DNA of 64,000 nt, from positions 134,501-198,500 of the forward strand of contig JAPFBL010000552.1 of assembly GCA_026182355.1 (NCBI GenBank), in the 5' to 3' direction. Below the pieces are notes generated by a model that did no database searches, had not been told where the DNA came from, and was given only the letters and a program-made list of their open reading frames with translations. The DNA is from Hermatobates lingyangjiaoensis. Taxonomy: Eukaryota > Arthropoda > Insecta > Hemiptera > Hermatobatidae. Numbering within the stretch: the stretch's first letter is position 1; each line of letters starts with the position of its first letter. Shown here piece by piece: positions 322 to 63,590 of this stretch. The position numbers were made by a program, and so were the translations under genes.

Positions 322-380
322 TCTTAATATTGACTGATGATGAACACTAAGTGTTCGAAATGCATCGTAAAATAAACTCC
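322..380 (+). ncRNA. Hammerhead-like ribozyme, PLE family D (relic)
   Basis: CTGATGA at 334-340 is followed by a perfect 6-bp hairpin (GAACAC/GTGTTC) and GAA at 357-359. The next bases ATGCAT are self-complementary and are followed by C at 366. This is core, stem II, GAAA, palindromic stem III and cleavage-site H in the right order for a type I hammerhead. Stem I is weak (A/G mismatch at the first pair). The flanking text (gtggtgaagacgta) matches other D copies near 54450, so this is a PLE 3' end without its coding part. Confidence 0.6.
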
Positions 381-970
381 TCGTGGTGAAGACGTAGTAT
401 TTCCTTCACTATCATTCACACTAATAGATAAAAGGTAATCTATAAATTTACAGTTCTACCGATACGGATATTAAAAACCAAAGTTAAATTACTTAATACT
501 AATGAATACGGAAAGGGATATTTTATTCTTATAAATTAATTAGAACTGGATGTCACCAATGGAAAGAATAATAAACGGATTATTAATATCTCATCTTAAT
601 GAAAAAATATAAATTGTACAATACAATCTATTGACCTCCTTTATTATGTATAAAGAAATTCTATTTCGCTGATGTCTAACTCTAAGTTTAATCTATTCGA
701 GTCAATTATAATTAATATTTATTATACTATTTTACTGTTTTTGTTTCATATCTCTATCCACGTAATCATAGTACTTTTAATTAAGGATATTAATTCATTA
801 TTTAATTAATCAGAGTTCATTTATCTTTACCAGTTTACATATTAAATAGTGGTCATGTGTGATAAAACACATTTTAAAAATGTAAATTTAAAATATCACA
901 TTTTAAAACAGCAGATAGTGTATATATATATATATATAATGATAAACGCAAACGGTCCGGCAGGACAGAT
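381..970. other. AT-rich spacer
   Basis: No ORF, RNA or repeat family recognised. It ends in a (TA)n run at about 920-938. Confidence 0.5.
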
Positions 971-973
971 TAC

Positions 974-1111
974 ACTTAAAATAAACTGTGATACATAGAC
1001 GGAAACATAACAAAGACTCACTTTTCAATTATAAGACCGTAATGGTGGTCGAAATATTGAAAAGTGAGTCTTTGTTATGTTTCCGTCTATGTGCCACAGT
1101 TTATTTTAAGT
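974..1111. repeat. Inverted pair of PLE family C1 ends (hairpin)
   Basis: Arms 974-1029 and 1056-1111 are reverse complements with about 4 differences, separated by 26 nt. The plus-strand arm carries the C1 segment GAAATATTGAAAAG preceded by its stem II (GACC/GGTC). The CTGANGA core is missing, so this copy could not self-cleave. Complete C1 motifs lie on the minus strand near 30420 and 57790. Confidence 0.7.
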
Positions 1112-1137
1112 ATATATGTTTATATATATCGACCGGA

Positions 1138-1308
1138 ACGCGGTCGATTCGCACTCCGTTCTTCGACGTGGGGAGATCTCTCTCACTTCGTCCTCTCTTC
1201 TAGTCTACTCTTGATGACGAATAACAGTTCGAAATATTGAATTCTTTAAGTGTTCTCTTTATTATTTTTTCTGTGTCGTGCTTTGTGTAATTTAAAGTTA
1301 TATATATG
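1138..1308 (+). mobile_element. PLE family C2 3' end with hammerhead relic
   Basis: Shares a block with 8584-8745, 58155-58310 and, inverted, 30465-30628. All have an agatctctctcacttcgt motif, a hammerhead-like core and a tail reading gtgtcgtgctttgtgtaat. Here the core is TTGATGA at 1211-1217 (first C changed to T), followed by a hairpin and GAA, then ATAT and T. The element is bounded by (TA)n on its 3' side. Confidence 0.65.
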
Positions 1309-1385
1309 GGTTGAAATATTGAATGTGAGCTATAGTATCTGTTTTTCATTTATGTTTCTCAATATTTTCAAAGTATATATATATA

Positions 1386-1582
1386 TAAAAAGATTTCACA
1401 TAAACAGGTGAAACAACAATCAATGATCAAACCACAATAAGAAATGGGAAAACAAGACTAAGATCTTTCAACCGTAACAAGCGGTCTTCGTCAGAGTTGG
1501 GTTTTTGAATCTGACGAAGACCGCTTGTTACGGTTGAAAGATCTTAGTCTTGTTTTCCCATTTCTTATTGTGGTTTGATCAT
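1386..1582. mobile_element. PLE family A inverted pair
   Basis: Two family A 3' ends meet head to head at about 1497. The left, minus-strand arm runs out to the long terminus (aaagatttcacataaac). The right, plus-strand arm stops at the short terminus (tttgatcat) and runs into (TA)n. Both carry CTGACGA, stem II GACCG/CGGTT, GAA and AGATCT-T. In both arms stem I is damaged at the junction: the plus copy has GAAT where other copies have GACT. Confidence 0.8.
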
Positions 1583-1625
1583 ATATATATATATATATAT
1601 ATATATATATATATATATATATATA
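1582..1625. repeat. (TA)n microsatellite
   Basis: About 22 TA units sit directly against the short end of the family A pair. Similar tracts occur at most PLE boundaries in this window. Confidence 0.95.
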
Positions 1626-1632
1626 AATATAT

Positions 1633-60574: not shown

Positions 60575-60860
60575 TATATAATCTTTATATACAAAGTTCG
60601 TGAGTTTGTTTGTTTTTTTGTTTGTTCACCCATTTTCCGTGGTGATAGAAAACTGAAATTATAATATATATATATATATATTATTTATTAACAAAATAAT
60701 GTTAAATAATAGAAAATTATTATTAATTTCCAAAAATTGCAGCCAGGGTAGCCAGTGGCTTGCGTGCTCGCCGATGACAGTAGTGCAAATGTATTATATA
60801 TAAATGTAACAAAAAAAGGGAAAACATATTCTAACTAAATTTTAATTTAAAATTTCCGAA
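60575..60860. repeat. Dispersed repeat R, copy 2
   Basis: Contains aaagttcgtgagtttgtttg, tgaaattataat, gtggcttgcgtgctcgccga and acagtagtgcaaatgtatta in the same order as copy 1 (25470-26100), without the LINE interruption. Confidence 0.55.
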
Positions 60861-60884
60861 ATATAAACACTGGTAATGAAGTAA

Positions 60885-60930
60885 AGAGCCAGAGTAGCCC
60901 AGTGGTTTGCATACTCGCCTCGACTTTCTA
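60885..60930 (+). mobile_element. SINE head fragment
   Basis: agccagagtagcccagtggt, then tactcgcctcgac, the box A half of the SINE. Box B and body are missing. Confidence 0.5.
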
Positions 60931-61685
60931 CAATATTATTTAATAATATTTCTCATTAAATGGTCAGGACAGCCTATAATATATATTAAACTATTACATT
61001 AGTGGTTAAAAATGAGTAATTTTAGAAATAAACTTGAACTCAACTGTCAGATAAAATACGAATGTTCTAAGGCAATATTATAAAAACACATTCCTTTCAT
61101 TAGTGTTATTGCAAGTTTTGCTTGTAACTTAATAACTCAACTGATAAATAAAGCTTTAACAATAATACAATTATTTAAAATATTTTTCAAAAACAAAGTT
61201 TTTTGAATTTTTCTCAAAAAAAAAAAATAATTTTGTAAGTAAAGAATTAATATATTTTTCTCTTTCCAGATTTACAAGGTGGATAAAAAGTGAACCTTTC
61301 CAATAGGGTAATATTACACTTAAGTATATTTTTGAGTTTTGATATCGAAATAATCAATTTTTTTTGATACATATTCATCTACACAACAAACATTGACAGA
61401 AGGTATAAATCGAATAATTAATAATATAATTCATGTATGGTTTATTTAGATTTGATAATTAATGAAACTATCCATGTTTTTCATAGTTATATCAATAGTT
61501 TTATAGATGAAGGAGTCAGATGTGGTTTACTAGATTACGTGTTTGTCGTTAGTACAGAAAAAGAGAAAATAATAGTCACATAATCATAATTAAGGCTCTT
61601 TTTTGATCAGAGTATAGAATACTCTGTGGTTATTATCACAATGCATAACTTTACTGAGACTTTTAAAGAATCCTAAACAAGTTAA
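60931..61685. other. AT-rich spacer
   Basis: No feature recognised. Confidence 0.4.
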
Positions 61686-61690
61686 AAGTA

Positions 61691-62231
61691 CCGTATTTTT
61701 CCGAAAATAAGTCCTAGTGTGATTTTCGAAACGTTTTAGATGATAAGGCCTCCCCTGGAAACATGCCCTAGTTAAGATAATGCGAAAAATATAATTTGTT
61801 AAAAAATTGCTGTTGAATGTAGTAGGTATCTCTAGCTGTCGTAATATTTCGGAAAATTTTTGGGAAAAAAAATTTCAAGAAATTCCTTGTTTACCTCTTA
61901 AGTTTCCTTCAAGGAGGCTACTTAGACAAGAAGTATTAATTTAACCTCAGCTATATTGCAAGACATGAAAGATTCAGACCAATGATTCCAGAGGAAGTAG
62001 ATTTGGAGGAAAATCAGAACGGAATTCAAAATTTTGATAATTTATGATGATGTTCCAGAAGATGACATGACTGTAATCGAATAAATTTAAATTTCTGTAT
62101 AAAAATAAATATTAAACAAAAATATGTAAATCTACTTAATGTACTTGAAGACTTACGCCGAGAATAAGCCCTAGCAAGGATTTTGACCTAAAAATAAACT
62201 AAGACAGTGTCTTATTTTCAGAAAAAGACGG
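61691..62231. mobile_element. TA-flanked DNA transposon relic, 541 bp
   Basis: Inverted ends ccgtatttttccgaaaataa and ttattttcagaaaaagacgg, bounded by TA (61689-61690, 62232-62233). Inner sub-terminal matches (aataagtcctag / aataagccctag). The interior near 61980-62060 (ccagaggaagtagatttgga, gaagatgacatgactgtaat) may be decayed transposase coding. TA flanks point to Tc1/mariner or pogo type, but the family is not certain. Confidence 0.7.
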
Positions 62232-62233
62232 TA

Positions 62234-62524
62234 GCTCTTAGCCCATCATATATATGTAATGCGGAGACACCCCAATATCCTGGACATTTGGTACATGACT
62301 GTTGTGTGAGGGAACCACAAAAACTGTCTTTCATTCAGAAAGGTTTACTTTATGGAGAGGAGTTAATACGTCTTTATATTCGTAGGTAAAACAATTTGTT
62401 TAATTTATGTACAGTTTTCAAATTAAAAAATACTTTAATCGAAAGACATTTTATATATGTTATATGATAAAGGTTATTATTATTATATATTATGTTCATA
62501 TTAAAAATTGTATATACTAATTAT
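62234..62524. other. Spacer
   Basis: A 60-codon frame begins inside the transposon end. No domain. Confidence 0.35.
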
Positions 62525-63590
62525 AAACAAACACTTTATCTTCTTCTTGGAATTTGGTCAGGGTTAATATACGGAATCACCTTTTTGCCAACGTTTCATC
62601 TTTATTTTAAGACATCCTCAGGGCTATAAACTAACAAAAAAACAATAAACAATGGACATTTGTCATTTCTACTTTAGAAACATCATAACAAATTCAAAAA
62701 AACTTACTCAAGGCTAGCTTCTGTTACCTTACAACATAACCGTTATGTCATTACAAGCTAGCCTTGAGTAAGTTTTTTGAATTTGTTTATGATGTTTCTA
62801 AAGTAGAAATGACAAATGTCCATTGTTTATTATTTTTTTGTTAGTTTATAGCCCTGAGGATGTCTTAAAATAAAGACGGAACGTTGGCAAAAAGGTGATT
62901 CCGTATATCAGTGCTTCTCAAACGGTGCGCCCTGGAAGATAGCCAGGTGCGCCCCAAGATAATGGAAGATTAAGTTTATATAACAGATTTATATTTTAGT
63001 TTTTGCACCATTTTAATTTATTTGAGAAAACACCAAGTATGGGGTTTTCAAGTCTGAGTCAAGTCTCGGCTACTTCATGTTTTGAACTGGAAGGTAAATT
63101 TCTTTAATCTTTAAGCATGAATGGATAATACTTCATCTGTGCCTTTACTCGGGGATTTAAATCATTTTTACTAGCCCTCCCTCTCTCTCACTCTCTCTGT
63201 CTCTCTCTCTCTCTCTTTCTTTCTTTTTCTTAAAAAAAAACTATACATTTTAATTTCCAATCATTTTCCTGTTATCAAATCACAGGACTAAATTTTCTAT
63301 ATTAAAATCAGTGATGCGCCCCAACGTTTTGGTTTGGTTTCATAGGTGCGCTCCAAAGTTTTGGTTTGGTTTCATAGGTGCGCCCCAAAGTTTTGGTTTG
63401 GTTTCATAGGTGCGCCCCAAAGTTTTGGTTTGGTTTCATAGGTGCGCCCCAAAGTTTTAGTTTGGTTTCATAGGTGCGCCCTGAAGTAAAAAAGTTTAAG
63501 AAGCGCTGCCGTATATTAACCCTGACCAAATTCCAAGAAGAAGAAAAAGTGTTTGTTAGTAATTTGTGGTCAAGAAAACAGTACCGTATA
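62525..63590. mobile_element. PLE family E inverted pair split by a hAT element
   Basis: The left arm 62525-62730 and right arm 62756-62908 plus 63517-63590 form a palindrome. The minus motif near 62592-62630 is near complete. The plus motif has CTGAGGA 62854-62860 but GGA instead of GAA. The left arm has a few bases less than the right. Confidence 0.8.
62909..63508. mobile_element. hAT-like element, 600 bp, perfect TSD
   Basis: CCGTATAT at 62901-62908 and 63509-63516. Ends cagtgcttctcaaacgg and gtttaagaagcgctg. A minisatellite of 5 units (about 32 bp, aggtgcgccccaaagttttg) occupies 63314-63485. (CT)n at 63178-63220. Confidence 0.92.

Follow-up and report, generated by a model that had tools for sequence, protein, structure and literature searches.

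Why should a single stretch of insect DNA hold many hammerhead-like motifs whose stem III is, in one repeat family after another, a different short palindrome? The stretch, referred to here as the window, is 64,000 nucleotides (nt) of Hermatobates lingyangjiaoensis (assembly GCA_026182355.1, contig JAPFBL010000552.1, positions 134,501-198,500, forward strand). An initial annotation had described at many places the order CTGANGA, hairpin, GAA and a word that was always a palindrome, followed by A, C or T, and had ascribed these motifs to ten or more lineages of Penelope-like elements (PLEs) gathered at one locus. Here we report a computational analysis of the window and of samples from the rest of the genome. 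It indicates that the motifs are probably minimal type I hammerheads, carried in the pseudo-long terminal repeat (pLTR) part of many PLE families, which would pair word to word as dimers.

The motif in the window and across the genome

The heptamer CTGANGA occurs 79 times in the window, a 3.5-fold enrichment over the mean of 22.7 in 100 dinucleotide shuffles (maximum 39). Adding a hairpin of at least 3 base pairs (bp) and GAA, with no requirement on the letters after GAA, gave 39 sites, where the shuffles averaged 0.86 with a maximum of 4 (n = 100); a palindrome starting with A followed 32 of the 39, in two cases as ACGT read within ACGTGT. When GAAA was demanded after CTGANGA and a stem II of at least 3 bp, 37 sites were found in the window and 0 in the reversed sequence. 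Thirty of the 37 GAAA sites continue with an exact palindrome and then H (A, C or T), or 34 if G.U pairs are counted, two of the four additions being AGTT inside decayed words of the repeat family F1. The seven non-palindromic sites, with the words AGATGT, AGTTCA, AGTTCT, ACTCGT, ACGAAT and, twice, ACGTGT (which self-pairs with G.U), all bear the stem II of F1 or F6, families that are palindromic in other copies. Additionally, a scored scan, which favours palindromes and tolerates one core mismatch, gave 41 sites at a score of at least 8, against 0.2 per shuffle (20 shuffles). The motif order described in the initial annotation is thus borne out by the 37 GAAA sites against none in the reversed sequence, and all twelve words that it named were recovered, between 334 and 62854 and on both strands.

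The motif is genome-wide, however, and not a feature of one locus as had been supposed. Across the 910 Mb genome, a single pattern ending GAA-ATAT-T was matched 16,596 times and its reversed form 404 times. Furthermore, a 200-kb sample from outside the window (20 stretches of 10 kb, taken not at random but at one fixed place in every tenth contig) held 61 sites, 46 of them palindromic, with 1 in the reversed control, and added an ACGT-C family; with a stem II of at least 4 bp there were 34 sites, 26 of them palindromic, and 0 in the control. Of the 15 non-palindromic sites among the 61, at least four share their stem II with F1 or F6 and are apparently decayed copies, two are the arms of one F4-like element (L062:9321 and 9511), and some could be fortuitous. 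Both arms of that element read ATAAT, which self-pairs save for a central A.A mismatch. Site density in the window is 1.9- to 3.2-fold that of the sample (per 100 kb, 57.8 versus 30.5 sites, or 54.7 versus 17.0).

Fortuitous matches, copied along with a few repeats, might produce such numbers in a window that is rich in AT and in repeats: many sites are copies of few repeats (F1 supplies 23 of 69), and AATT and ATAT are common in AT-rich DNA. We consider this extremely improbable, as the controls yielded 0 to 1 site in each window or sample, the architecture recurs in families with no further similarity detected between them, and the motif was replicated in 200 kb elsewhere.

Families and their palindromic words

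A BLAST search with 16 representatives found at least 69 copies in 16 families, a lower bound, since it missed the F4 copy at 3511. They comprise F1 (AGATCT-T, 23 copies), F6 (ACGCGT-T, 8), F4 (AATT-A, 7), F2 (ACGT-T, 6), F9 (ATAT-T, 4), F8 (ATAT-A, 4), F10 (AGGCCT-C, 3) and, with two copies each, F6b (ATGCAT-C, one of them, at 45467, belonging rather to F6), F3 (ACGT-T), F5 (ACATGT-T), F7 (ATAT-T) and F14 (AATT-T); F11 (AGCT-T), F12 (ACGT-T), F13 (ACATGT-C) and F15 (ACATGT-C) are single copies. With one typical word per family, entered by hand from the copy listings, the 16 families have nine distinct typical words, every one palindromic, and all four possible A-N-N'-T words and five 6-letter palindromes are present in the 64 kb.

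F4, F8, F10 and F15 came in through scans that sought or favoured palindromes, and the other 12 families through a word-blind scan. In the latter, 12 of 12 typical words are palindromic, whereas a palindrome plus H follows only 12.4% of the 1071 GAAA sites of the window. These are not 12 independent events, because shared ancestry is possible (F2 and F3 have the same stem I and word).

Individual copies drift. Read by eye, the F1 copies have AGATCT in 18 of 23, the palindrome ATATAT in one and a non-palindromic word in four; those of F6 have ACGCGT in 4 of 8, ACGTGT in three and ACTCGT in one. The word is therefore palindromic in its typical form in 16 of 16 families, and not always so in single copies. 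Drift of the word within a family had been named beforehand as one of two outcomes that would refute the proposal; it is seen in part, as decay of inserted copies, while the typical words of the window families all stay palindromic. F1 also occurs as 57-bp tandem units at 57258-57419, where a deletion seems to have removed GAA, the word and the letters behind it from the copy at 57280.

Covariation of the stems

Covariation was assessed with one sequence per family, on pairs named by the analyst and representatives that were hand-picked and mostly intact. In the 4-letter words (nine families) the outer pair is AU throughout and the inner pair is CG in three, UA in three, AU in two and GC in one, with 9 of 9 paired. 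In the 6-letter set (seven sequences, F6a and F6c counting as one family) the outer pair is AU in all seven, the second CG in five, GC in one and UA in one, and the third AU in four and GC in three, with no mispair. Stem II is paired in 96-100% of cells and stem I in 67-75%, both with two-sided changes. The covariation scores and the share of paired cells were reached by 0 of 500 shuffles, and the count of both-sided changes in the 6-letter set was matched by 1 of 500; sliding the partners by 1-3 columns lowered the paired cells from 83-89% to 18-39%. The proposal that changes of the word between families keep it self-complementary is thus upheld by both word sets. The stem I pairing that had been noted (GACT/AGTC, GCC/GGC, TCTC/GAGA, AGTC/GACT) is also real and covaries between families, except that the first pair is missing in the listed F6b, F9 and F12 copies.

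Because a loop-less 4-letter stem III would, judging from hammerhead structure, hardly close on itself, covariation of the inner letters points to pairing between two motifs. Each active lineage would keep a loop-less self-complementary stem III of 4 or 6 nucleotides, which a single motif could not well close alone. Two motifs, either in tandem pLTRs of one transcript or in two transcripts, would then pair by their words into a double hammerhead, which could cut after the base following the word. A lineage might alter its word only if both halves changed together, presumably under selection in the master copies, and a set of different palindromes would result; the genomic copies would mostly be dead insertion products at (AT)n, made from RNA uncut at that motif, in which the words then decay. 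The double hammerhead, already published for such ribozymes (PMC7761336, PMC3088659), is the best-supported use of the conserved self-complementary stem III.

Alternatively, each motif might work by itself as a hammerhead, closing a stem III of one or two pairs, its inner self-complementarity being incidental or inherited. The pair A15.1-U16.1 is expected in any hammerhead, monomers of an axolotl one-pair type, whose tetraloop is palindromic, are weakly active (6% after an hour; PMC7229834), and most predicted homodimers of our representatives pair the word incompletely. Such monomers are unlikely here: a monomer needs no inner match, yet the inner letters match in 16 of 16 typical words, with four pair types in the 4-letter words, and a 4-letter word leaves no loop for a monomer.

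The catalytic core

The representatives display the core CUGANGA ... GAA, A15.1-U16.1, H17 and stems I and II of a type I hammerhead, save that F10 (AGGCCT) is without a real stem II. In the 16 representatives, selected for an intact CTGANGA, the residues C3, U4, G5, A6, G8, A9, A13, A14 and A15.1 are invariant, and G12 differs in F15 alone. Several F4 copies beyond that set have A12 (8923, 10847, 10913 and 26505); they represent several insertions and keep AATT, and the two arms of 8744-9040 differ at the G12/A12 base. G12 is the general base of the hammerhead (PMC6155905) and A12 has been used as a slowed variant (PMC2553840); by analogy, the A12 form of F4 is expected to cut poorly.

Penelope-like elements as the source

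Three open reading frame (ORF) fragments resemble the GIY-YIG domain PF01541, two above the Pfam cut-off and the third just below it, and tblastn adds three weaker fragments (Table 1). All six have a same-strand motif 141-615 nt downstream, and the better ones are about 37-39% identical to one another where aligned. The PLE fragments examined hold ORF ends only and are assigned by GIY-YIG rather than by the reverse transcriptase (RT) core. Protein searches returned five relatives for 20581-21186 (45-64% identity), two for 2225-2641 and none for 4301-4690. No relatives of the PLE GIY-YIG fragments were found among the viral and prokaryote contigs searched, and the exact F1 motif had no match in the viral contigs searched. 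A degenerate motif, searched irrespective of PLE context, had 44 matches in viral contigs, several of them mutual copies; some, by eye, resemble ordinary phage hammerheads, with stem II directly after A9.

In published PLEs the pLTRs are inverted and stand head to head, the targets are simple AT-rich sequences, and one of the inverted pLTRs may carry a 31-bp tail (PMC3846280); in an anole PLE, two neighbouring start sites of reverse transcription enclose the tail (PMC11167929). The window shows the same arrangement of pLTRs, together with AT-rich targets and a tail of 30-40 nt. A run of (AT)4 or longer lies 60-140 nt downstream of 38 of the 69 copies; the share is 8.6% for randomly chosen places and 26% equally far upstream of the copies. 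F6 is the exception, having no (AT)n run downstream. F1 arms tend towards an abrupt start, which in 11 of the 32 in the window lies 15-19 nt upstream of C3, beside TTGGGTTTTTG, and in the insert-start check, which fully covered F1, F9, F10-F13 and F6b, no cluster of F1 inserts starting at the cut site was seen.

A PLE origin is thus supported by the GIY-YIG fragments, the head-to-head arms, the (AT)n flanks and the tail signature. The proposed number of ten or more PLE lineages holds in part: there are 16 repeat families, but only four words are tied to GIY-YIG fragments by position, through the four better fragments, namely ACGT (3169), AGATCT (5064, decayed to AGATGT), AGCT (21330) and ACATGT (19382).

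Evidence weighing against dimeric hammerheads

Several observations weigh against reading these motifs as hammerheads that cut as dimers. Stem I is short or missing in several families, and one extra nucleotide, unusual for hammerheads, lies between A9 and stem II in 36 of the 37 GAAA sites of the window (36 of 39 in the GAA scan; in the 200-kb sample 53 of 61, or 31 of 34 where stem II has at least 4 bp). No Rfam hammerhead model matched the window at the gathering threshold or at E up to 10 (whole window, 73 matches), nor did any match on two short stretches, an outcome that had been named beforehand as refuting the proposal. In the 4-letter set, the six pairs changed on both sides were matched by 98 of 500 shuffles. 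Cofolding, which is not decisive, predicted homodimers that pair the word fully in only 4 of 16 representatives (F5, F6c, F11, F12). Of 27 same-family neighbour pairs within 1.6 kb, 17 are divergent, 7 direct and 3 convergent; the inverted ones, which are the majority, could form no cis dimer within one transcript, and the array at 54388-54722 was the one place where intact motifs were found in direct tandem. A simple role in processing is disfavoured by the copies inspected, which continue beyond the predicted cut site, so that their RNA template was presumably uncut there. The presence of the A12 form of F4 in several insertions implies that spread seems not to need a copy's own ribozyme. 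In the anole PLE, moreover, hammerhead mutants left insertion in vitro unaffected, cleavage needed protein and no RNA ends were found at the cut site (PMC11167929).

The missing Rfam match is not fatal, because the motif is far above shuffled and reversed background and because a loop-less stem III with an extra core nucleotide would depart from those models. Together, the near-invariant extra nucleotide and the silent models suggest that standard annotation overlooks such hammerheads. The many microRNA-like Rfam matches below their gathering scores were set aside as presumable inverted arms and (AT)n.

Some of these observations would also suit a word that a PLE protein dimer reads as a dyad, whether in RNA or in DNA, as a recognition or endonuclease site, with the ribozyme fold mostly a relict. 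The copies inspected extend beyond the predicted cut site, and in the anole PLE the protein is a predicted dimer, the hammerhead cut only with protein and ribozyme mutants inserted normally (PMC11167929). We hold this to be quite improbable, as a protein dyad is not expected to change its letters freely between families, and the letters of the catalytic core are conserved with the word, as are stems I and II. Dimeric hammerheads of PLEs remain our preferred reading.

One tail per head-to-head pair

A tail is found on exactly one arm in 21 of 21 head-to-head pairs of the window (12 of F1, three each of F2 and F4, and one each of F3, F5 and F10), including 1390-1582, 1864-3290, 4274-5135, 5172-5394, 8744-9040, 11391-11604, 16787-17856, 36093-36393, 53207-53415, 58344-58683 and others. 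Tailed arms served as queries, and 5 of the 21 pairs include a query arm; without these pairs, 16 of 16 are discordant. The short-end positions were fixed after the alignments had been viewed, pairs were formed solely by order and strand, and several arms are partial (e.g. 4274-4300, 21925-21960, 63509-63586). In the 20 stretches of 10 kb elsewhere, 28 of 32 pairs were discordant, one was tailed/tailed, one untailed/untailed and two were unclassified, giving 28 of 30 classifiable pairs; the outside total was 34 pairs with 30 discordant, from which L049 and L050, non-random loci that are probably one element, were left out.

If the second arm were copied back from the whole first arm, the same end would be expected on both. 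The one-tail rule thus favours two separate reverse-transcription starts per insertion, one per DNA end, with each of the two known start sites used once, which fits better than fold-back copying. When the two arms of each pair were compared, a single template RNA could not be told from two templates: where arms differ, the variant is mostly confined to one of them, and at a few sites (such as G12/A12 of 8744-9040) both states recur elsewhere. The tail has been described as optional or as found on a fraction of PLE copies (PMC3846280, PMC11167929). A strict one-tail rule was not met in the literature searched, though Arkhipova 2006 and Craig et al. 2021 may state it. The rule matters as a sharp, countable constraint on PLE integration, whose mechanism remains poorly known.

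It is conceivable, if rather unlikely, that linkage of RNA dimers is the main reason for keeping stem III palindromic, with two PLE RNAs in a two-fold ribonucleoprotein making the head-to-head one-tail insertion and cleavage being secondary. The two DNA ends would then differ in where RT starts, one using the short site and the other the tail site, a detail that we hold equally doubtful. The uncut copies, the spread of an A12 subfamily with its palindrome kept, and the one-tail rule hint at such a linkage; that two RNAs rather than one are the templates is a supposition.

Positions of motifs and other features

Table 1. Hammerhead-like motifs and PLE fragments of the window, in window coordinates
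Feature	Position	Strand	Remarks
GIY-YIG fragment of PLE ORF	2225..2644	+	within F3 element; PF01541, E 2.6e-5
GIY-YIG fragment of PLE ORF	4301..4693	+	upstream of F1 hammerhead at 5064; PF01541, E 2.5e-5
GIY-YIG fragment of PLE ORF	20581..21189	+	upstream of F11 hammerhead; just under Pfam cut-off
GIY-YIG-like PLE fragment	19889..20065	-	upstream of F13 hammerhead; tblastn E 4e-9 to P0004
Weak GIY-YIG-like PLE fragment	59341..59516	-	upstream of 58831; tblastn E 5.5e-5
Weak GIY-YIG-like PLE fragment	53921..53995	-	25 amino acids; tblastn E 0.001
F1 AGATCT-T	16533..16567	-	reference copy, tailed arm
F1 AGATCT	1460..1494	-	left tailed arm of head-to-head pair 1390-1582
F1 AGATCT	1511..1545	+	right untailed arm of pair 1390-1582
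F1 AGATGT	5064..5098	+	decayed word; 371 nt past GIY-YIG fragment 4301-4693
F1 AGATCT	5214..5248	-	untailed arm
F1 AGATCT	5289..5323	+	decayed GAA core, tailed arm
F1 AGATCT	9967..10001	-	
F1 AGATCT	11460..11494	-	tailed arm
F1 AGATCT	11533..11567	+	untailed arm
F1 AGATCT	16702..16736	+	untailed arm
F1 AGATCT	23114..23148	+	tailed arm
F1 AGATCT	32612..32646	+	core GGA, tailed, partner not found
F1 AGATCT	53272..53306	-	tailed arm
F1 ATATAT	53340..53374	+	two changes from AGATCT, palindrome kept; untailed arm
F1 AGATCT	57394..57428	+	adjoins partial 57-bp tandem units
F1 AGATCT	58592..58626	-	tailed arm
F3 ACGT-T	1924..1955	-	left arm of PLE 1864-3290
F3 ACGT-T	3169..3200	+	right arm of PLE 1864-3290
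F4 AATT-A	3367..3391	-	left arm
F4 AATT-A	3511..3535	+	right arm, outside the 69 copies
F4 AATT-A	5930..5955	+	
F4 AATT-A	8803..8828	-	untailed arm
F4 AATT-A	8923..8948	+	A for G12, tailed arm
F4 AATT-A	10913..10937	+	A for G12
F4 AATT-A	26505..26529	+	A for G12
F5 ACGTGT	3760..3794	-	word self-pairing with G.U
F5 ACATGT-T	4084..4118	+	
F6b ATGCAT-C	334..366	+	first stem I pair unpaired
F6 ACGCGT-T	23926..23958	-	
F6 ACGCGT-T	54173..54205	-	
F6, four direct tandem hammerheads	54388..54722	+	~100-bp unit; ACGTGT, ACGTGT, ACGCGT, ACGTGT (mutual pairing with G.U)
F2 ACGT-T	16880..16911	-	
F2 ACGT-T	17755..17786	+	
F2 ACGT-T	36163..36194	-	
F2 ACGT-T	36264..36295	+	
F2 ACGT-T	62590..62621	-	
F2 ACGT-T	62854..62885	+	core GGA
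F7 ATAT-T	57768..57799	-	
F7 ATAT-T	30397..30428	-	
F8 ATAT-A	16372..16396	+	hammerhead-like, 2-bp stem II
F9 ATAT-T	30532..30559	-	without clear stem I
F10 AGGCCT-C	1744..1768	+	strong stem I (GCTCT/AGAGC), without stem II
F11 AGCT-T	21330..21359	+	141 nt past GIY-YIG fragment
F12 ACGT-T	18026..18055	+	without stem I
F13 ACATGT-C	19350..19382	-	
F14 AATT-T	57574..57598	-	
F15 ACATGT-C	11171..11203	-	TAA for GAA

The window also holds a 3.7-kb array of ~21-bp units (TATATTATGTCAAGTAACGTG) at 37292-40980 and a 12-copy array of 75 bp at 28873-29792. Further ORF fragments lie at 12965-13760 and 27653-28249, the second with a weak RNase H match (E 0.0039) below the cut-off; we take both to resemble RT ends of the long interspersed nuclear element (LINE) type.

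Comparison with known systems

By their title, Lunse, Weinberg and Breaker (2017) reportedly described small hammerhead variants of Penelope-like retrotransposons that cleave as dimers; compared by title only, these variants share both the PLE association and the dimer mechanism. An extra core nucleotide is also said to occur in a viroid hammerhead treated by De la Pena and Flores, reportedly that of chrysanthemum chlorotic mottle viroid (CChMVd) and after A9, but as a single case there and at nearly all sites here.

Lunse et al. are cited for an 'extremely short stem III' in PMC8490949. The hammerheads of Cervera and de la Pena (2014) are minimal type I motifs with stem III reduced or lacking, in PLE pLTRs and in thousands of mostly dispersed copies (PMC7761336, PMC6155905); those of the window are of the same type, with 16 families and 9 words side by side in 64 kb. 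According to Perreault et al. (2011), the vast majority of palindromic stem III/loop III sequences would permit dimeric pairing (PMC3088659, Figure S8). Dimer pairing is the common point with our motifs, whereas Penelope is unmentioned in the legend of that figure and the words of the window are loop-less.

In the anole element PAc, the motif lies at the pLTR-ORF junction, with the cut site 26 nt and the RT start 111-118 nt into the ORF, 85-92 nt apart (PMC11167929). PAc resembles the window in having the RT start downstream of the motif, a tail of 30-40 nt and AT-rich targets, the F1 distances being about 36 and 71 nt; it is unlike the window in that cleavage needed protein, and its sequence differs. 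Its start codon follows G8 at the start of stem II (PMC11167929), a place that by analogy would fit the A9-U-G10.1 insertion. Among the retrozyme type I hammerheads of amphibians and metazoans, one axolotl type has a one-pair stem III with a palindromic tetraloop, and cleavage is better as dimers. Such retrozymes belong to short tandem repeats (150-450 bp) with circular RNAs, whereas the window holds PLE copies, mostly in inverted pairs (PMC7229834). The nearest approach to such repeats in the window is the ~100-bp array at 54388-54772 and a 168-bp pair at 18861-19168.

One genome with many PLE families and differing words offers a natural mutational series for dimeric hammerheads. Since the words stand side by side, the dimer hypothesis can be tested by mixing families, where matching words should cross-pair and mismatched ones should not. 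The window is a rich set of a known kind, PLE dimer hammerheads and palindromic stem III being already published; its less expected parts may be that the word set is complete, that the extra core nucleotide is present at almost every site, and that the one-tail rule has next to no exceptions.

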